DNA of 64,000 nt, from contig JAATGM010000020.1 of the NCBI GenBank assembly GCA_015654675.1, positions 1-64,000 on the forward strand. The letters run 5' to 3'. The position numbers and the translations under genes were made by a program. Below, one piece after another: positions 18,144-27,492 of this stretch (within the stretch, counting starts at the first letter, position 1; each line of letters opens with the position of its first letter). The notes below the pieces were generated by a model. That model saw only the letters and a program-made list of their open reading frames with translations. It had not been told where the DNA came from and searched no databases. This stretch comes from Planctomycetota bacterium (GTDB lineage: Bacteria; Planctomycetota; Phycisphaerae; UBA1845; UTPLA1).

Positions 18144-20576
18144 TCAGGGGCACGCGGCGGTCGGGTTCTGCAAGAGCATTTCGACGAAGAGGGCGGCGTC
18201 GGCGGCGTCGATGCGGGTGTCGCCATTGGTGTCGGCGCAGGCGCACGGGGTGTTAAAGGTCGAGGCGGCGCTGAGGCAGGCGATGAATGCGGCGACGTCG
18301 TCGCCGTTGATCGCTCCGTCGCCGTTGACGTCGCCGAGGCAGGAGGCGTGGCACTGGCATTCGTCGGGCGCGCCGTTCTGGTCGGCGTCAATCAGCGTTC
18401 CGGCGGCGATGTCGCAGCTATCAGGAATGTAGTTGGCGTTGCAGTCTGGCGAGATTCCGGCGGCGAGTTCGCAGACATCGAGCCAGTTGTTCTGATTGCA
18501 GTCGTCATCGGGGCGCGTGTAGGTGACTCGGACCTGGATGTAATTTCGGGTGTCGCAGGCGAGGTCGACGAACTCGCTGGGAATCATGTGGATGTCTACG
18601 CTGGACTGGGCGATGGCGGCGTTGAAGACGGCGGCTGGAACGATGAGGGTGTCGTGGCTGGGATTCCAGGGGCAGTCGGCGCCGGCGATAAATACAGATC
18701 CGACGGGCGTGTCGCCTAGCTTTATGTCGACGTATTCGTTTGAGCCGCCGAGGTCAGCGATTGCTTCAAATTCGAGGGTGACATCGGATGTCGCCTGCGG
18801 GGCGGGCCAGAGGTGATAAGACTGGGGATTCCCAGACGAGATCGGGTGAAGTGGTGGTGACTGTTTGATGACGATTCCGGCGAGCTGACAGGAGTCGGGA
18901 ACGAAGTTGGCATCGCAGTCGGGCAGGCAGGCGGCGCCACAAATTGCCGGATCGGTTTCGCAGCGGTCGGGAATGTTGTTTGAGTTGCAGTCGTCAACGG
19001 CACCGGTTTCGAGGTCGCAGTCGTCGGGGACGGAGTTGGCGTCACAATCGAGTTCACAATCGTCGGGGATGTTATTGGCGTTGCAGTTCTGACAGGTGGG
19101 ACAGATGGGGGGGAGTTGGCAGATATCGGGAATTCCGTCGGCCTGGCAATCGGCGCAGTTGGGGCAGATGGGAGGAACCTGGCAGTCGTCGGGGAGGAGA
19201 TTGCCGTCGCAGTCCGGCGCGCCAAGCAGGATTTCGAGGGCGTCGGCGATTCCGTTGTTGTTGCAGTCGAGACCAACGGAAGAGACCGAAAGGTGGTAGA
19301 GCTGGGACTGGGTCGGGGCATTGGCGCACGAAACGCGGATGTAGTACACGCTGGGACCGGGGAGTTGCAGGTCAGTGATGGAGCGGGGCTGGCCGAGCGG
19401 GGCCTGGGGAGCGGATGCGATGGCTGTGGTTCCGTCGGGCCCAAAGATCTGGAGCGTGAGATCGGCGAAAGTAAGACTATTGATGAAGTGGTTGCTGCAG
19501 CAACTGGCGGGATTGCCGGAGCAGGATTGCGCGCTGTTGTCGTAGCTCGCGATTCCAATCGGAGTGACCGTGACGTTCAGGCGACTGAGCGAGAGGATGG
19601 AGAATTTGAACCAATCCTGTTCACCGGGGGCATCGATGCTCAGTGTCGAGCCGGCATTGACGGCGGGTGGGCTCGGCGGGGTACCGAGGTTGACGGTCGT
19701 GCCGGAAACAAGCGTGCCGATTTTCCTGGATAGTTGAGGCGTGTTGTCGGGCTCCGACGGGTCGCCGTAGAGCCACTGGGCGGCGCGGATGTCGTCGTGC
19801 TGCGGTCCGTCGAAAGCCGTCGTTGCGACCGGTTCCATGAGGATGGTCTGCGTGAGCGGGCAGGTGTGAAGCAGGCCGAGGGCGTGGCCGGCTTCGTGGG
19901 AGACAACGTTTCGAAGCTTGAGCGAGTTGTTGGCGATGTCGTTGAAGAAGGTGTCGGCGGTGTCGAGGACGATATCTCCATCGGACGGGAAGCCCGTGTA
20001 TCCCAAAATGCCGCCCGGACCGTTGAGGGGCATGCCGGCGATGCGAATGTCTCCGCGCATACCAGGTTGGCCGAGAATTGAATTCAGTTGCGATCCGTCG
20101 TCGGCGGGTTCGTAAACGAACGTGACGCCGCAGAGTTGTCCCCATCGAGCGAAGACTTGTGCGAACAGGGGCTGCCAGACATCGGGTGAACCGTATAGAA
20201 CGTTCATGAAGGCGAATAGATTGCTCTGGCCGGTGAAGCCGATGCGGTCTGGAATGGGGGTTCCGTCAGGGACAAAGCTGTAGGAGAGAGTAATTGGATC
20301 GCCGGGGCCGAGCGGACCGGGCGACTGTGACGAGCTGGGCCAGCGGCCGGTGATCTGGAAGCGTGGCTGCGGTCCCCATGCGGCGAGCATGGCGCTGGAG
20401 AAGAACTCGATTTCGGCGTCGGGGGTTCCCGGGGCGAAACAGACGGCAGGGGCTCGTCCGGCCCGAATGGGACGCGGATTCAGCGTCCGCGAGGTCGGAC
20501 CTTCCGCATTGTGCAATGCAGAGCCGACCACGAGCGCGGCGGCGGCTGCAGCCGCGAGAACGCCGAAATACTTCAC
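18144..20576 (-). CDS. Secreted metzincin (matrixin-like) with PPC-like domain, Ca-binding repeats and dockerin-like tail
   Basis: GTG 20576 is chosen because AGGAG lies 7 bases upstream and a compact signal peptide follows (V-K-Y-F-G-V-L then an alanine run); an ATG 7 codons earlier (20597) has no such site. The catalytic domain has H-E-A-G-H-A-L-G-L-L-H (His227, Glu228, His231, His237) and a Met-turn I-L-M-E-P (Met247), defining a metzincin of M10/M43 type. After it come A-A-Q-W-L-Y-G-D, a pre-peptidase C-terminal-like beta domain, TSP3-like D-C-x-x-N repeats, an unnamed beta module and a dockerin-like pair (D-V-N-G-D-G-A-I-N-G-D-D; D-T-N-G-D-T-R-I-D-A-A-D). Length ~810 residues. It is paralogous to the next upstream gene (20680-23400). 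Confidence 0.88.
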   Translation of the reverse strand: MKYFGVLAAAAAAALVVGSALHNAEGPTSRTLNPRPIRAGRAPAVCFAPGTPDAEIEFFSSAMLAAWGPQPRFQITGRWPSSSQSPGPLGPGDPITLSYSFVPDGTPIPDRIGFTGQSNLFAFMNVLYGSPDVWQPLFAQVFARWGQLCGVTFVYEPADDGSQLNSILGQPGMRGDIRIAGMPLNGPGGILGYTGFPSDGDIVLDTADTFFNDIANNSLKLRNVVSHEAGHALGLLHTCPLTQTILMEPVATTAFDGPQHDDIRAAQWLYGDPSEPDNTPQLSRKIGTLVSGTTVNLGTPPSPPAVNAGSTLSIDAPGEQDWFKFSILSLSRLNVTVTPIGIASYDNSAQSCSGNPASCCSNHFINSLTFADLTLQIFGPDGTTAIASAPQAPLGQPRSITDLQLPGPSVYYIRVSCANAPTQSQLYHLSVSSVGLDCNNNGIADALEILLGAPDCDGNLLPDDCQVPPICPNCADCQADGIPDICQLPPICPTCQNCNANNIPDDCELDCDANSVPDDCDLETGAVDDCNSNNIPDRCETDPAICGAACLPDCDANFVPDSCQLAGIVIKQSPPLHPISSGNPQSYHLWPAPQATSDVTLEFEAIADLGGSNEYVDIKLGDTPVGSVFIAGADCPWNPSHDTLIVPAAVFNAAIAQSSVDIHMIPSEFVDLACDTRNYIQVRVTYTRPDDDCNQNNWLDVCELAAGISPDCNANYIPDSCDIAAGTLIDADQNGAPDECQCHASCLGDVNGDGAINGDDVAAFIACLSAASTFNTPCACADTNGDTRIDAADAALFVEMLLQNPTAACP

Positions 20577-20610
20577 GCTTCCACTCCTCGTGTGCATTTC
20601 CCCATCTCGT

Positions 20611-20679: not shown

Positions 20680-23400
20680 TCAAGGACACGATGTATCGGG
20701 ATCGGTGAGCAACTTGGCGACGAAAAGGGATCGATCGGCGGCATTGAGCTTCAGATCACCATTCATGTCGGCACAGCCGCAGTCGTTGACCGCAAGATTG
20801 GCTCCTGCGAGGCATGCCATGAATGGCGGGATGTCGCGACCATCGACCACTGCGTCGAGATCTAGATCACCCTGACAGAACGCGTTGCAACTGCACTCAT
20901 CCGGGCGGCCGTCCTGGTCGCCATCGGTGAGGAAGCCCTCAGCAATATCGCAGTCGTCGGGTTTGCCGTTGTTATTACAGTCTGTGGCCGTGCCGGCAGC
21001 GATTTCGCAGGCGTCAAGCTGACCGTTGAGGTTGCAGTCTCCCTGAGCGGCGCTGTAGTCGATTTTGACGGAGATAAACGTGTTTCCGCCGCAGGCCCCG
21101 TCGACCAGGACATTGGGGACCATGTTGATGGCGGCGTTACCGCCCGCGACGGCAGCGTTCCAAGTTGCCGCGGGCACGGTAATCGTGTCGGTGTTGAAGG
21201 AGGGACAAGAGAAACCGGTGAATGCGAATGCCGTGCCCACGGGGGTTCCGTTGACATCGATGTTGACAACTTCGGAAGCGCTATCGATGTCGCCGACGGC
21301 CTTGAAGAAGAGGCTTACATTGCCCGAGGCGCCCGGCGGCGTGACGAGGGTGTAAGTCTGCGTAATAGGCTGGATCAGCGGCGAGAGATTGGGGGACTGC
21401 TGGCTGAACGAGCCGACGGTCTGACAGACGTCGGGCACGAAGTTGTGATCGCAATCGTTGATGCAAGTCGGGCCCGCGCCGCCGCAAAGGGCCGGGTCGG
21501 TCTGGCAGCGATCGGCAATCGTATCGCCGTTGCAATCGGTCAGTGCACCACTAATGAATTCGCAGAGATCGGGGATGAGGTTGTGATTGCAGTCCGGACA
21601 GCCACCGGCGGTGCAGATGGGCGGGACCTGGCATTCGTCGGGGATGGCATCGGGCTGGCAATCATGGCTCGAACCGAGGGCGATGTCGCAACTATCGGCG
21701 CGGCCGTTGCCATTGCAGTCGGGTTCGCAGCCGTCGGGAATGCCGTTGCCGTTGCAATCTGGACAACCAGGTCCGGTGCAGATGGGCGGGACCTGACAGT
21801 TGTCGGGAATGCCGTCGTGATTGCAATCGGGGCAAAGCTGGTTGGTGCACAGCGGCGGCACCTGGCACTCGTCGGGTACGCCATCGGCGTTGCAATCCGG
21901 GCTGGTGTGATTCGCGATGTCGGTCGGGTCGGGGATGCCGTTTCCGTTGCAGTCGAGATTGGCGAGAGAAATGTTGAGTAGATAGAGCTGCGTATTGGTC
22001 GAGGCAATCGGCGAGGCGGCGTACACCTTGATGAAGTAGGTTCCCGCGCCGAGGAGATTGACGTTGTTCACAGTTTCGGTGACGCCGGCAGCGGCGGAAT
22101 TTCCTGTCGCGAGGACGGTTGTTCCATTCGTCGCGATTATTTGAAGGTTGAGATTAGCCATGGTGAGACTGTTGATGGGACTTCCGGAGCAACAACCATC
22201 GGATCCCCCGCAGGCCTGCTGGCTGCTGTCGTAGGTGAAGCCCAGCGGCGTGGCGCTAACGGTGGCGGAAACGGGTTGATTCACGGTGAATTTGAAGAAG
22301 TCGCCGGTCGCGTTGTCGGCGGCGTCGATGCTGAGTGTTGAGCCGGCGTTAACCGCCGGCGCGGGCGGCGTGCCGATGGTGACGGGGCTACCAAACGTCA
22401 GAGTACCGAGGTTCGAGGCCTGAGCGATGGAATCGTTTGGCTCGAATTTGTCGCCGTAGTGAGTCTGAGCAGCGCGAATATCGTCGTGCTGCGGGCCATC
22501 GAAAGTTGTGTCGATAAACGGCTCCATCAAGCGGGTGAGGCCGACCGGGCAGACGTGAAGGAGACCGATTCCATGACCATGCTCATGCATGACGACGTCG
22601 CGCAGGAAGACGTGATTGTTATTCGCGGCGGAGAAGAAATTAAGGTCGCCGGAGTCCAGCGTCATGTCGCCATCGGGCGGAAAAAAGTTAAATGCGAGCA
22701 CGTTGCTGCTGCCGTCGATATTTCGCATGGCGATTCGGACGTCGCCTCGGAGGCCGGCGGCGCCTGGAGTCGAGTGGAGCGCTGATCCGTCGTCAGCGTC
22801 ATTCGCCAGTACGATACGCTCATAACTCAGGCCAGTCAGAGATTGCCATCGATCGAAGCAAGATTGAAGGCGGGCGATCCATGTTGCGCGTCCGCCCTGT
22901 GCGGCGAAGGCGTTGTCCATCATCGCGAATAGATTGCTGTTGACCGGATTGGTGCCATTGGATTGAACGACGTTGGGCGTTCCGTCCGGGACCAAACTCC
23001 AGCGGAGGGTCTGAGGACTTCCGGGCTGTCCGTCTCCGCCATTGGTGCCGGCAGGCCAACGCCCCGTGAGGTTGAAGCGCGGTCCGGGCGGGAGCGTGGA
23101 GAGGATGTCATCGTAGACCTGCTTCATGTAGAGCGGATCGGTACCGGGCGCAAAACAAACCGCCACAAGCGGAGTGACGACATGACCGAAGCCGTAGTCG
23201 TCTACGAATACGTGGTCGTCATGCGCGGCTTGATCTGGGTCTTCGGCAGCCATTGGAGGTGCGGGCGGCTTCGGGGTCGTTGGGGGTTGAGATTGATTGC
23301 GAGTTCCGGAATGGACAAGGGGAATTGCAGCCACGGCAATTGCCGCAAGGAAAGCCGTCGAGAGGAGGAACCAAGTCCGATTCGAATTTGATGAGCGCAT
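20680..23400 (-). CDS. Secreted metzincin (matrixin-like), paralogue of the adjacent gene
   Basis: ATG 23400 is chosen over the longer open frame because AGGAAAG lies just upstream and a normal signal peptide follows (M-R-S-S-N-S-N-R then F-L-L-S-T-A-F-L-A-A-I-A-V-A-A); the extra 58 residues would be Arg-rich. The 906-residue protein has H-E-H-G-H-G-I-G-L-L-H (His272, Glu273, His276, His282) and Met-turn R-L-M-E-P (Met292). Then follow a PPC-like domain (F-E-P-N-D-S-I-A-Q-A ... F-F-K-F-T-V), TSP3-like repeats, the I-Q-P-I-T-Q-T-Y-T-L module and a dockerin-like pair. Its C-terminal ~250 residues are far closer to the S53 protease than to the neighbouring metzincin, at DNA level too, suggesting recombination between tails. 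Confidence 0.88.
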   Translation of the reverse strand: MRSSNSNRTWFLLSTAFLAAIAVAAIPLVHSGTRNQSQPPTTPKPPAPPMAAEDPDQAAHDDHVFVDDYGFGHVVTPLVAVCFAPGTDPLYMKQVYDDILSTLPPGPRFNLTGRWPAGTNGGDGQPGSPQTLRWSLVPDGTPNVVQSNGTNPVNSNLFAMMDNAFAAQGGRATWIARLQSCFDRWQSLTGLSYERIVLANDADDGSALHSTPGAAGLRGDVRIAMRNIDGSSNVLAFNFFPPDGDMTLDSGDLNFFSAANNNHVFLRDVVMHEHGHGIGLLHVCPVGLTRLMEPFIDTTFDGPQHDDIRAAQTHYGDKFEPNDSIAQASNLGTLTFGSPVTIGTPPAPAVNAGSTLSIDAADNATGDFFKFTVNQPVSATVSATPLGFTYDSSQQACGGSDGCCSGSPINSLTMANLNLQIIATNGTTVLATGNSAAAGVTETVNNVNLLGAGTYFIKVYAASPIASTNTQLYLLNISLANLDCNGNGIPDPTDIANHTSPDCNADGVPDECQVPPLCTNQLCPDCNHDGIPDNCQVPPICTGPGCPDCNGNGIPDGCEPDCNGNGRADSCDIALGSSHDCQPDAIPDECQVPPICTAGGCPDCNHNLIPDLCEFISGALTDCNGDTIADRCQTDPALCGGAGPTCINDCDHNFVPDVCQTVGSFSQQSPNLSPLIQPITQTYTLVTPPGASGNVSLFFKAVGDIDSASEVVNIDVNGTPVGTAFAFTGFSCPSFNTDTITVPAATWNAAVAGGNAAINMVPNVLVDGACGGNTFISVKIDYSAAQGDCNLNGQLDACEIAAGTATDCNNNGKPDDCDIAEGFLTDGDQDGRPDECSCNAFCQGDLDLDAVVDGRDIPPFMACLAGANLAVNDCGCADMNGDLKLNAADRSLFVAKLLTDPDTSCP

Positions 23401-23685
23401 CTTTCCTGCCACTCCAGTTGGGTTGTCAATCGAGCGCCGATGTGCTCTCAGAAGGGAGAGTCGGCGCCAATCTAAGAAACGACCGCGAAAAACGGGGATA
23501 GAATTGAAACCCCGCACGTCACTGCCCGCGGCGACGGCCCCGGCCGCCTGACGGCATCCTCCAAGATCACCCAATTATACCGTTTAATCGGTGTCAGCAT
23601 AAGGGTTTTTGAGGTTATGGCAGCGGTGGGCCGGGTTTCCTAAAATCAGGTCCTTATCGGCACGCGTGGATTCGCGGACGGAGGC

Positions 23686-24918
23686 ATGGCGACGATGTCG
23701 AGTGCGGCGGCTTTTGGGATGCATCGGCAGTCCGCAATCGGGGTTCCCCCGATTGTGGGACATGGGGGGGGACGGCTCAGCGAAGGGGACGCTGCGGGAC
23801 TTTATGCTGAAGCGAGTATCCATGAACTGGGGGAGCGAGCGCTGGGAATTACGCAGATGCTCCACCCGCAGCCGTGGCGGACGTACGTTGTCGATCGCAA
23901 TATCAACTATGCGAATTGGTGCACGGCCAAGTGCATCTTCTGCAATTTCAAGGCGGACCCGCCGGAGATGCATTCGGGGCGGACCGATTTGCCGAGCGGA
24001 TATACGCTGAGCCATGCGCAGATCGGCGCGAAAATTGAGGAGTTGATCGCGATCGGGGGGACGCAGATTCTCATGCAGGGGGGATTGGTGCCGGCGGAGG
24101 GGGCGGCGGGGCTGCCATTTTCATGGTACCTGGATTTGATGCGGTTCATTCGGACGAACTACCCGACGATTCACATTCATGCATTCAGTCCACCGGAGAT
24201 TTTCGGGTTTCACCAGATATTTGGGATGCCGATTCGCGATGTGCTGTTGCGGCTGCAGGAGGCGGGGCTGCACAGCGTTCCGGGTGGCGGCGGCGAAATC
24301 TTGAGCGATCGAGTGCGCGAGAAGATCGGGCGGGGCAAGACGCTGAGCGCGGAGTGGCTGGAGGTGATGCGGCAGGCGCATGCAATCGGCATGGTGACGA
24401 GCTGCACGATGATGTTCGGGCACATTGAGACCGTCGAGGAGCGGATCGAGCATTTGCAGTTGTTGCGCGATTTGCAGGATGAGGCACTGGCGCGGGGGAA
24501 TGGCGGCGGGTTCAGCGCGTATATCTGCTGGACATTTCAGCCGGGGGACACGCCGCTGGGACGCGTGACGCAAATGCCGCTGAATGGTCCGAAGACGCCG
24601 GATGGGCGGCCGATAGCGGATGGGAAGCATCTATTGCTCGCGGATGCGGCGGAGTATTTGCGGATGCTGGCGCTTTCGCGGATTTATCTGGACAACATCG
24701 CGCATATTCAATCGAGCTGGGTGACGATGGGTCCGAAGATCGGGCAACTGGCGATGTTTTATGGCGCGGATGATATGGGCAGCGTGATGATGGAGGAGAA
24801 TGTCGTGTCGGCGGCCGGGACGACATACTGCCTGAATGAGGCGGAGATTCGGCGGTTGATCACGGACGCCGGCTGGACGCCGCGAAAGCGGAACTTTTAC
24901 TACCAGCCGATCGATTAG
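23686..24918 (+). CDS. mqnC: Cyclic dehypoxanthinyl futalosine synthase
   Basis: A 410-residue radical SAM enzyme. N-W-C-T-A-K-C-I-F-C (Cys79, Cys83, Cys86) is the CxxxCxxC cluster site after N-I-N-Y-A. The segment P-G-G-G-G-E-I-L-S-D-R-V-R, the T-M-M-F-G-H-I-E-T stretch and W-T-F-Q-P-G-D-T-P separate MqnC from the related MqnE. The enzyme cyclises dehypoxanthine futalosine in the futalosine route to menaquinone. It heads a tight plus-strand group: an unrecognised gene starts 10 bases later, followed by a probable aminodeoxyfutalosine deaminase. The N-terminal ~25 residues are poorly conserved in character, so a slightly later start is possible. Confidence 0.93.
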   Translation: MATMSSAAAFGMHRQSAIGVPPIVGHGGGRLSEGDAAGLYAEASIHELGERALGITQMLHPQPWRTYVVDRNINYANWCTAKCIFCNFKADPPEMHSGRTDLPSGYTLSHAQIGAKIEELIAIGGTQILMQGGLVPAEGAAGLPFSWYLDLMRFIRTNYPTIHIHAFSPPEIFGFHQIFGMPIRDVLLRLQEAGLHSVPGGGGEILSDRVREKIGRGKTLSAEWLEVMRQAHAIGMVTSCTMMFGHIETVEERIEHLQLLRDLQDEALARGNGGGFSAYICWTFQPGDTPLGRVTQMPLNGPKTPDGRPIADGKHLLLADAAEYLRMLALSRIYLDNIAHIQSSWVTMGPKIGQLAMFYGADDMGSVMMEENVVSAAGTTYCLNEAEIRRLITDAGWTPRKRNFYYQPID

Positions 24919-24928
24919 CGTGGGGGAG

Positions 24929-25642
24929 ATGGCGAACGGCGGCGTGTACTCGGCGACTGAAGTGAAGCGCGTCGCGGTCAATGACGACGCGACGGACGCA
25001 CTTGGGTCGGCGGCGCGGCGAGCGCTGGTCGTTCATGACGGCGGTGCGGAACCAATCGAGCTGATGTGGGGACGTGCGGTTCGACTGCGGAAGCTTGTGC
25101 TGCGATTAGTCGAACTGGATGAAGTGCGTCTGGTTCGGCATGACCGGCTGGCGGTCGAAGCGGCGGCGCTTTTTGTGGATTCGGCGTGGGCCGAAGAATT
25201 GCGGACGGGGCGGGTCCAACGCGGGGCAGTGATGTTGCAGCCGATGGACATGCGTCAGCGGGAGCTTTCGGCGGATGTGCTGTTGCGAGCGACGGCGGAT
25301 GTCTTGCCGGACGAGACGCGGCGTATTGCGGGGCGCACCATTCGCGAAGCGGGATCGCGGGGGACGACGCTGACGGAAGCAATTGTATTGGGGGAGGCGA
25401 TTGAGCTTGAGTCGATCGGGCCGGAGTGGGTGCTGCTGGAGAGCCGGCGGGCGTGGGTTCGCGGTCAGGATGGGGCGACACTGGTTGGGCAGTGGCGGAC
25501 GCAGCAGGAGTATGGGTATTGGGAGGCGCGGATTCGGGATCGATTGCGGTATGAGTGGTCGCGACGGGCGGCGCGCCAGCGACTGGCCGGGCTGGCGGCG
25601 TTCATGGAGACGTTTGCGGCGCAGATCGCGGTTGAGACGTAG
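24929..25642 (+). CDS. Unrecognised protein between mqnC and the deaminase
   Basis: ATG 24929 gives 237 residues; a GTG 9 bases upstream is an alternative. There is no signal peptide or membrane segment. The sequence is rich in Arg, Glu, Ala and Leu, with predicted alternating strands and helices (L-V-L-R-L-V-E-L-D-E-V-R-L-V near the middle) and a basic C-terminal helix. I could not match it to MqnA, MqnB, MqnD or MqnE. The close packing (10 bases after mqnC, 2 bases before the deaminase gene) implies co-expression and points to a role in menaquinone synthesis or its regulation. It may be a known but divergent family; no function is assigned. Confidence 0.75.
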   Translation: MANGGVYSATEVKRVAVNDDATDALGSAARRALVVHDGGAEPIELMWGRAVRLRKLVLRLVELDEVRLVRHDRLAVEAAALFVDSAWAEELRTGRVQRGAVMLQPMDMRQRELSADVLLRATADVLPDETRRIAGRTIREAGSRGTTLTEAIVLGEAIELESIGPEWVLLESRRAWVRGQDGATLVGQWRTQQEYGYWEARIRDRLRYEWSRRAARQRLAGLAAFMETFAAQIAVET

Positions 25643-25644
25643 CG

Positions 25645-26907
25645 ATGTCGGATGCGGTGACGCTGCGTGCGCGGTGGGTCGTGCCGGTGGAGGGTCCGGC
25701 GATTGAGAATGGGGCAGTGCGGATTGAGCGGGGATTGATTACGGCAGTGGGGCGGGCGGGGGCGGTTTCGGGTAGCGGGCGGGTTGAGGACCTTGGGGAC
25801 GTGATGGTTGTTCCCGGGTTTGTGAATGCGCATACGCACCTTGAGCTGGGTTGTTATGCGGGAAGGATTGCGCCGCAGCCGTTTTGGGACTGGATCGAGC
25901 GGCTGATTGCGCTGCGTCGCGAGTCGGGGAGCGGAGAGCGAGAGCGGGCTTCGATCGCGGCGGGGGCGCGAATGTCGTTGGAAGCCGGGGTCACGTGCGT
26001 GGGGGACATTTCGCGGAGCGGGTGGAGCGCGGCGGCGCTGCGCGGGATTCCGATCCGGCGAGTTTGTTTTGTGGAGTTGATCAGCGGAGCGCCGACGCCG
26101 CCGGGCGATCCGGATGAATTGATCGAGGCGGTAAACGCGGCGGAGGAGGCGGCCGACGAGTTGACGACAGTGGGCGTCAGTCCGCATGCGTTTTATTCGG
26201 TGAGCTGGAATGATCTGAGGCGGACGGTGGCTATCGCGGCGGAGGCGGATCGTCCGATCACGATGCACGTGGCGGAGACGGCAGAGGAAATTGAGTGGCT
26301 GACCGGCGGGGGCGGGCGCGTCGAAAATTTCCTGACTCGATATGGGCTGGCGAATGCGTCGGCGGCGATTCGGGGCGGGTATGTGGAGTTGTTGCATCGC
26401 GTGCTGATGACGCGATTGCGGCCGCTGCTGGCGCACGCGAATTACACGAGCGATGAAGAATTGCGGATGCTGGCGGAGACGCGGTGCGGGGTGGCGTATT
26501 GTCCGCGGGCGCATGTTTACTTCGGGCACGCGGGGCATCGGTGGCGCGAGATGCTTTCCGCCGGAATCAACGTCTGCGTGGGCACGGACAGTCTGGCGAG
26601 CAACAGTTCGCTTTCGATATTGGATGAGCTGCGGGTGATGCGGCGAGAAAACGCGGGTTTTCCGGCGGCGGAATTGCTGGAAATCGGGACGATTCGCGGT
26701 GCGCGGGCGCTGGGGATCGAGGAATCGTGCGGATCGCTGGTTGTCGGCAAGTCGGCGGACATGGTGGCGATGCAGTTGGATGGAAATACGGGGAAAAATG
26801 CGGTGGAATCGTTGTTTGAGGAAACCAGTTTCGTACGATCGGTTTGGGTCGCGGGCCGAAGCATCGTTCGGGACGGGATTTACGACGCGCAAAATGCTAC
26901 AATGTGA
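25645..26907 (+). CDS. Amidohydrolase, probable aminodeoxyfutalosine deaminase
   Basis: 420 residues of the metal-dependent amidohydrolase superfamily. Metal ligands are visible: N-A-H-T-H-L-E-L (His63, His65), T-M-H-V-A-E-T, L-L-A-H-A-N-Y and G-T-D-S-L-A-S-N. The set matches the ATZ/TRZ-deaminase group (cytosine/guanine and S-adenosylhomocysteine deaminase relatives), which includes the 6-amino-6-deoxyfutalosine deaminase of the futalosine pathway. The position in a tight group with mqnC makes that substrate the best guess. If so, this organism makes futalosine by deamination before hydrolysis. Other purine or pterin substrates cannot be excluded from sequence alone. Confidence 0.85.
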   Translation: MSDAVTLRARWVVPVEGPAIENGAVRIERGLITAVGRAGAVSGSGRVEDLGDVMVVPGFVNAHTHLELGCYAGRIAPQPFWDWIERLIALRRESGSGERERASIAAGARMSLEAGVTCVGDISRSGWSAAALRGIPIRRVCFVELISGAPTPPGDPDELIEAVNAAEEAADELTTVGVSPHAFYSVSWNDLRRTVAIAAEADRPITMHVAETAEEIEWLTGGGGRVENFLTRYGLANASAAIRGGYVELLHRVLMTRLRPLLAHANYTSDEELRMLAETRCGVAYCPRAHVYFGHAGHRWREMLSAGINVCVGTDSLASNSSLSILDELRVMRRENAGFPAAELLEIGTIRGARALGIEESCGSLVVGKSADMVAMQLDGNTGKNAVESLFEETSFVRSVWVAGRSIVRDGIYDAQNATM

Positions 26908-27075: not shown

Positions 27076-27492
27076 ATGAGCGACGAGAACCGACTTCACA
27101 TCGACGATGACTGGAAGGCGTCGGCGCGACGCGAGAAAGAGGAACTGGCGAAGGAAGTCGAGTCGCACGACGAGGGGCCGTTGCCGGAGGCGTCATTTCT
27201 TGCGATTTTGAACACGCTGGCGATGCAGGCGATGGTCGGGCTGGGTGGTTTTGGCGGACCGGGCGGCCAGCAGATTCCTCCGAATCCGGAAACCGCGAAA
27301 CTATTTATCGACATGCTCGACGTGCTCGATCAAAAGACGAAGGGAAACCTGACTGAGGAAGAGAAGAAGGTTCTCGACAAGACACTCTACAGTTTGCGAA
27401 TGGCTTATCTGGAGATGATGGGCGGGGCCGCTGGTGGCCCGGCAGGTGGTCGAGGGGCTGGTCCCATGGGCGGATCGGGGATTGCGCGCTGA
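27076..27492 (+). CDS. DUF1844 family protein
   Basis: 138 residues, cytoplasmic. D-D-W-K-A-S-A-R-R-E-K-E near the start, P-E-A-S-F-L-A-I-L-N-T-L-A-M-Q-A and D-Q-K-T-K-G-N-L-T-E-E-E match DUF1844 (PF08899), a small helical family widespread in planctomycetes and some proteobacteria. Function is unknown. The Gly/Ala-rich C-terminus is low complexity. It stands alone, with a 168-base gap upstream and a terminator-like hairpin at its stop codon. Confidence 0.88.
   Translation: MSDENRLHIDDDWKASARREKEELAKEVESHDEGPLPEASFLAILNTLAMQAMVGLGGFGGPGGQQIPPNPETAKLFIDMLDVLDQKTKGNLTEEEKKVLDKTLYSLRMAYLEMMGGAAGGPAGGRGAGPMGGSGIAR

Follow-up and report, generated by a model that had tools for sequence, protein, structure and literature searches.

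An unrecognised reading frame beside mqnC

In the window analysed here, a stretch of 64,000 nucleotides, a reading frame is packed between mqnC and a deaminase-like gene, which raises the question whether it encodes a component of the futalosine pathway to menaquinone. An earlier note on this DNA had described a protein of ~237 residues, separated from its neighbours by gaps of 10 and 2 bases, and had suggested a missing pathway enzyme, a scaffold or a regulator peculiar to planctomycetes. The observation holds throughout, the interpretation in part. According to the ORF list, the frame runs from an ATG at 24929 to a stop codon ending at 25642 (237 codons); mqnC ends at 24918, 10 bases upstream, and the deaminase-like gene begins after 2 bases, so that length and both gaps agree exactly with the coordinates. 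An in-frame GTG at 24920 would give 240 residues, and on the letters alone either codon may be the start; most relatives start about 20 residues later in the alignment. As set out below, we consider it probable that the gene encodes an HD-fold protein that derives from a YpgQ/YedJ-like metal-dependent hydrolase, has lost the metal site and is now a pseudoenzyme.

Each of the two neighbours scored under its equivalog cut-off and over that of a broader family. The mqnC product matched TIGR03699 at 2e-123 with 411.6 bits, slightly short of 428.1 bits, and was over the cut-offs of CofH_C and Radical_SAM. The downstream amidohydrolase was over the cut-off of PF01979 and below that of the aminofutalosine deaminase family NF006269. 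The MqnC match in the window is split at profile positions 247/252, which corresponds to an insertion near residue 300, and similarly split matches occur in other genomes of family f1, to which the window belongs, in several of f4 and in one of f5. The DUF1844 gene that follows the deaminase-like gene occupies the same place in four f1 loci (the window, L032, L060 and L063; cluster 11). On the minus strand upstream of mqnC lie two tandem genes for large proteins with a matrixin domain in each; both also have a C-terminal dockerin match, that of the second slightly under the cut-off, and many short Cys-Asp-Asn-rich repeats in between.

Features of the window and of three related loci (residues numbered from the GTG)
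Feature	Positions	Strand	Basis
Large protein with matrixin (Peptidase_M10) domain, first of tandem	18144-20597	-	domain match
Large protein with matrixin (Peptidase_M10) domain, second of tandem	20680-23574	-	domain match
mqnC (cyclic dehypoxanthinyl futalosine synthase)	23686..24918	+	TIGR03699, CofH_C, Radical_SAM; insertion near residue 300
HD-family gene	24929..25642	+	ORF, 237 aa; homologues in 44/61 genomes; HD profile and fold matches
R52 codon, place of first metal-binding His	25073..25075	+	His in 50/54 members outside the window's group
V86-D87 codons, place of His-Asp dyad	25175..25180	+	alignment; His lost, Asp kept
I161 codon, place of terminal metal-binding acid (YpgQ D124)	25400..25402	+	5dqv alignment and accessible part of PMC8177086
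Amidohydrolase, probable aminofutalosine deaminase	25645..26907	+	PF01979; NF006269 159.9 bits, below cut-off 320
DUF1844 protein, next gene after deaminase-like gene	27076..27492	+	PF08899 1.8e-21
PF02621 gene (taken as mqnD) and MTAP	L170:1907-3729, L171:1957-3984, L172:1937-3836		three f4 genomes

The protein belongs to the HD superfamily

Searched alone, the window protein had no match at E≤1 in Pfam or NCBIfam, the models for the Mqn enzymes (PF02621, PF01048/TIGR03664, radical SAM/TIGR03699/TIGR03700) included, which bears out the claim that it is none of MqnA, B, D or E. Its best match among PDB sequences was unrelated (E 0.93), and none of the 55 stretches returned from named genomes was confirmed. 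Relatives were then sought in 61 genomes, comprising the window's own (G000) and 60 relatives of its family and order. A gene of the same protein family was present in 44, and a search with a profile built from 38 members arrived at the same number; the nearest member reached E 2.4e-51. One homologue (L003) is 51% identical over 211 residues and has the same two neighbours. The frame is coding beyond chance, being conserved as a protein in these 44 genomes, its own included.

The profile route placed the protein where single-sequence searches had given nothing. Among 18 aligned family members, 15 matched PF01966 (HD) at E≤1, with a best value of 1.1e-9; homology to the superfamily thus emerges through the family profile, not from the window copy alone. 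Against PDB, the profile found 3b57 (3.8e-8), 3dto (8e-7) and 5dqv (YpgQ; 1.9e-6), all of them HD hydrolases, and the alignment displays the pattern W-E-H-S-x-R-V ... A-A-L-Y-H-D-A-G-W ... E-A-E-N-L-D-E-I-G.

AlphaFold modelled the window protein with high confidence (pLDDT 94.8, pTM 0.89), and the predicted fold is the helical HD fold. In Foldseek, the first 13 rows were YpgQ and the HD proteins 2qgs, 2pjq, 3dto and 3b57, led by 5dqw (YpgQ with ADP) at E 2.3e-3 and probability 1.00; these E-values are modest, and none reached 0.001. In VIA, 2pq7 scored Z 15.2 (rmsd 3.4, 167 residues aligned) and 5dqw Z 14.8 (3.3, 179 aligned). Phosphodiesterases reached Z 10.8–12.9 among the matches listed, the human ones 10.8–11.4 and two rows 12.7–12.9, level with YedJ (3gw7; 12.8); helical proteins easily attain middling Z values. 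A likewise confident AlphaFold model of the relative L074, in which the metal site is intact, found the same entries more strongly (2pq7: E 9.4e-6, Z 16.5).

On profile and predicted structure, the window protein is a divergent member of the HD superfamily, nearest to YpgQ/YedJ-type hydrolases. It shares the predicted fold of YpgQ of Bacillus subtilis (5DQV/5DQW), an HD nucleotide pyrophosphohydrolase, over almost the whole chain at ~17% identity. Unlike YpgQ, its family carries a C-terminal signature, W-x5-Y-x-[YF]-W-x2-R. The predicted fold is likewise that of E. coli YedJ (3GW7), termed uncharacterised in the accessible part of PMC11592144, and of the structural-genomics HD proteins 2PQ7, 3B57 and 3DTO, from all of which the window copy differs by the absence of the metal site. 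Profile search and structure prediction, both proposed in the earlier note, therefore led to the HD superfamily and not to a peculiar futalosine component, and a gene unrecognised by Pfam and NCBIfam now has a name and a testable fold. A missing nucleosidase, which we had also considered, was rejected: the window protein has no PNP_UDP_1 match and a predicted HD fold instead.

Concerted loss of the metal site

For all counts of family members, 66 distinct sequences were used, 44 from the 61 genomes, 6 from a phylum sample and 16 from named records. From 89 loci, 21 had been dropped as identical copies, and two weak members (L138 and L149) were also left out before counting; the weak L139/L141 (G151) were never added. 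According to the accessible part of PMC8177086, the metal ligands of YpgQ are H29, H58, D59 and D124. Through the profile alignment with PDB 5dqv these correspond to positions 52, 86, 87 and 161 of the window protein, with an offset of 6 in the PDB sequence that is our own mapping from the HD dyad.

Like YpgQ, 44 of the 66 members retain metal ligands at all four places, Glu being allowed at the last. The window copy, reading R52, V86, D87 and I161, has one of the four left and lacks the H...HD...D motif; it is a homologue with the predicted fold, not an HD metalloenzyme. Twelve members from families f1, f10 and f14 constitute what we term the window's group. At the terminal acid place, Asp or Glu occurs in 46 of the 54 members outside this group and in none of those inside. 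The terminal acid is missing from each of the 16 members that have lost the first His, compared with 4 of the 50 in which that His is present, which indicates that the HD metal site, as judged from the alignment, tends to go as a unit. Between the intact and the broken state there are 8 changes on the tree, and the loss is thus repeated as well as concerted.

Because the metal site is gone in its lineage, the window copy is most likely a pseudoenzyme. It would no longer hydrolyse a substrate by the HD metal mechanism of its putative YpgQ/YedJ-like ancestor, and with three of four ligands lost it is unlikely to be the enzyme that was proposed to be missing from the pathway. Position 52 is Arg or Lys in 12/12 members of the window's group, and this residue probably occupies the vacant metal site, facing the retained acids. 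An HD domain without hydrolytic activity is also described for RelA, where it is put down to domain divergence (PMC8177086, accessible part); the resemblance is one of kind and not of family, and RelA is a synthetase too, while the HD fold of the window protein stands alone.

Counter to a pseudoenzyme, all 12 members of the group keep the acid of the dyad (Asp or Glu at 87), and a number of further polar residues do not vary among them. An altered, metal-free activity of the group is possible on these residues. We regard it as distinctly unlikely that the protein is a repurposed enzyme whose new, metal-independent activity would draw on the conserved acids near 159–164 together with Arg/Lys52 and Asp87. 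E153, Asp or Glu at 164 and an acid two residues before position 161, each conserved in 12/12, fit such an enzyme, but like the residues at 52 and 87 they could equally be structural salt bridges.

Selection on the metal-less form

Loss of the metal site did not amount to loss of the protein, since the comparisons of His-less f14 members gave dN/dS values of 0.098–0.131. The lowest was that of L146/L147; the other two (0.131 and 0.130) lie at dS near 2 and use one genome twice. In f14, the His-less form is under purifying selection; the window copy itself is not among the pairs. Six other pairs gave dN/dS values of 0.105–0.333; the f1 pair L060/L063 had 0.303 at dS 1.28.

These values bear on the proposal that the gene is a neutral passenger, an HD gene that came into the cluster and is decaying in f1. 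The proposal is consistent with the loss of the metal site, with the absence of the gene from 11 of 17 f1 genomes and with the long f1 end branches (window 1.01, L037 1.47; median 0.44), which also fit decay and count against a retained partner. However, no stop codon interrupts the match in the six f1 genomes that have the gene, the f14 comparisons and that of L060/L063 argue for constraint, and W192, Y198, Y200, W201, R204, R215 and R221 are invariant in all 12 members of the window's group. Taken together, we consider a neutral passenger unlikely.

The His-less members of f1, f10 and f14 may form one clade: uniting the 12 members gives a tree that scores slightly better than the unconstrained one (AU p 0.557). 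We also considered whether members linked to a deaminase tend to be those without a metal site. The first His is lost in 6 of 7 deaminase-linked members versus 10 of the 59 others (Fisher p 5e-4). There are 3 independent pairs on supported branches, and in these the two traits never go the same way. The association was not counted, because the independent pairs are few and the His-less members may be one clade.

Distribution relative to the futalosine pathway

Presence of the pathway was scored on MqnA/D (PF02621) over cut-off, because the MqnC model also catches MqnE-like proteins and its matches may be split. MqnA/D was over cut-off in 61 of the 61 genomes. MqnC, counted as present at E≤1e-20, was likewise found in 61/61 and was over cut-off in 36. 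A phylum-wide MqnC search at 1e-85 was left out, being too strict to call absence when the window's own match is split.

Despite the universal presence of MqnA/D, the HD gene was absent from 17 of the 61 genomes. Six f9 genomes (6/6) have MqnA/D and MqnB over cut-off and no HD gene, and at locus L166 mqnA and mqnC are directly followed by a deaminase-like gene, the HD gene being absent. Relatives thus run the futalosine pathway without it. Across 294 genomes of the phylum, the HD family was strong in 7 (the window's own, one f10 and five f14) and weak in 3. In f14, the gene occurs without a MqnA/D match in 5/5 genomes, each with a completeness of 99%. The HD gene is therefore neither found in every futalosine-pathway genome nor confined to the pathway, and its description as a futalosine-pathway component, in the strict sense of a gene that always and exclusively accompanies the pathway, does not stand.

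Gene neighbourhood

Counts of linked genes are lower bounds, as some loci stop at a contig end. The gene next upstream on the same strand was mqnC in at least 24 of the 66 distinct loci, with mqnA in reach in at least 18 of these, and a deaminase-like gene lay downstream in at least 7 (in L040 after a MTAP-like gene). The neighbourhood noted for the window is thus conserved. Among the 44 members from the searched genomes, mqnC was upstream in f1 (2/6), f2 (3/3), f6 (1/1), f7 (1/1) and f8 (6/8), and in neither f4 (0/13) nor f5 (0/12). Since the tree of the HD family is largely vertical, these linkages to mqnC and the deaminase-like gene fit an inherited menaquinone link that is not seen in f4 and f5.

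The packing varies. With 86 bases between the mqnC match and the HD match, the window is the tightest of the 24 mqnC-linked loci; in 19 of these, the two matches are 282–565 bases apart, so that tight packing is special to few loci. Other neighbours recur as well: hpt (TIGR01203) follows the HD gene in at least 11 of the 66 loci, MTAP (TIGR01694) or a MTAP-like gene lies beside it in at least 2, and it adjoins nadB in at least 2 and murA in at least 2. In f14 (L143–L147) and L037, the metal-less HD gene stands beside, or one gene from, a CTP_transf_like gene; the cytidylyltransferase-like neighbour of L144 is coaD by TIGR01510.

A regulator or scaffold dedicated to MqnC, the deaminase or both would account for the tight packing in the window and for the recurrence of mqnC and deaminase-like neighbours on branches of different families. 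It would not be expected to keep company with hpt, nadB, murA, MTAP and cytidylyltransferase-like genes, to occur in f14 without a MqnA/D match, to be missing from 17 of the 61 MqnA/D genomes, or to lie several hundred bases from the mqnC match in 19 of 24 linked loci, and we judge such dedication improbable. The protein may still be a scaffold, a regulator or an accessory; its dedication to the futalosine route is what the data contradict. Our best reading is that the HD protein would serve a purine/menaquinone cluster as an optional accessory: if working, it may act as an optional ligand- or protein-binding partner of the adjoining enzymes. The locus also cautions against reading close spacing to the genes of a pathway as proof that a gene encodes one of its enzymes. 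In the literature searched, with subscription journals mostly outside it, no link of a HD protein to the futalosine pathway was found.

The purine-release step

The same genomes display a gap at the step at which the purine is released. MqnB was over cut-off in none of the 61 genomes and reached E≤1e-5 in four, with 2 of 14 controls over cut-off; MTAN was over cut-off in two (G021 and G018). In most of the 61 MqnA/D genomes, purine release in the futalosine pathway thus lacks an assigned enzyme. Among 20 fetched PNP-family proteins, 8 were MTAP over cut-off, one of them from the window genome, where MTAP is encoded at G000:C28:105141-105869, and MTAP was present in 8/8 genomes so checked; the remaining 12 comprised 7 AMP nucleosidases, 1 DeoD and 4 without a match over a cut-off shown. 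In three f4 genomes (G041, G050 and G059), the gene immediately after a PF02621 gene encodes MTAP, with TIGR01694 over cut-off. We took the PF02621 gene as mqnD from that match, the other such match in the genome being mqnA-like; it obtained no NCBIfam name at E≤1e-40.

These matches suggest MTAP as a candidate substitute for MqnB. A promiscuous phosphorylase could serve futalosine, according to the part of PMC6302742 that was accessible, and MTAP as a substitute for MqnB in planctomycetes was not found in the literature searched, which mostly excluded subscription journals. That the HD protein itself fills the MqnB gap was also considered; the idea is weakened by the 17 of 61 genomes that have neither the HD gene nor MqnB over cut-off. 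When the genomes' counts of PNP_UDP_1 matches were compared by eye with the presence of the HD gene, no complementary pattern appeared.

A phosphorolytic pathway would offer the HD family a catalytic role. MTAP would cleave (amino)futalosine, releasing the purine and leaving the 1-phosphate of dehypoxanthinyl futalosine; the HD protein would then take off the phosphate and so provide MqnC with its substrate. The window copy would be a retired version. The absence of MqnB and near absence of MTAN over cut-off despite MqnA/D and MqnC-model matches in 61/61 genomes fits this scheme, as do the MTAP proteins recovered, the window genome's included, and the MTAP genes behind the mqnD-like gene in the three f4 genomes. 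So does the gene order at L040, the locus of L074 on contig JAFGLZ010000132.1, where mqnA, mqnC, an intact HD gene, a MTAP-like gene and a deaminase-like gene follow one another; at L042, the gene after the HD gene encodes an MTAP over cut-off. However, 17 genomes have neither the HD gene nor MqnB over cut-off (one of them, G018, has MTAN over cut-off), and f14 has the HD gene, though in the metal-less form, without a MqnA/D match. Furthermore, HD phosphatases conserve an Arg that typically precedes the first His by three residues (PMC8177086, accessible part). At the corresponding position 49, the window copy has Met, and Leu, Val or Ile occurs in 54/54 members outside its group. A phosphatase role is therefore unsecured even for intact members, because the Arg is absent from its usual place as defined in that part of the source, and the window copy, without a metal site, would need a new mechanism. 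We therefore hold a phosphatase of this kind to be quite unlikely. Very unlikely is the broader scenario of an order-wide phosphorolytic route, with MTAP for MqnB and, ahead of MqnC, a HD 1-phosphatase from the mqnA-mqnC cluster, in which the HD metal was lost where the deaminase joined and the protein, as in the window, is now a non-catalytic partner.

Whatever the HD protein does, the absence of MqnB and near absence of MTAN over cut-off in the 61 genomes, with MTAP in the eight so checked, is a directly testable pathway gap, and the purine-release step of these organisms is a better lead than the HD gene. The L040 cluster is possibly a complete purine-release module; its MTAP-like protein is divergent (158 bits versus a cut-off of 274.85). 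The L040 assembly has 8% contamination, and MTAN is also present in it. The class members G187 and G258 have MqnB matches below cut-off. In G258, this match adjoins the PF02621 match, so that MqnB may be divergent in family f11, and we left f11 out as an example of MqnB absence.
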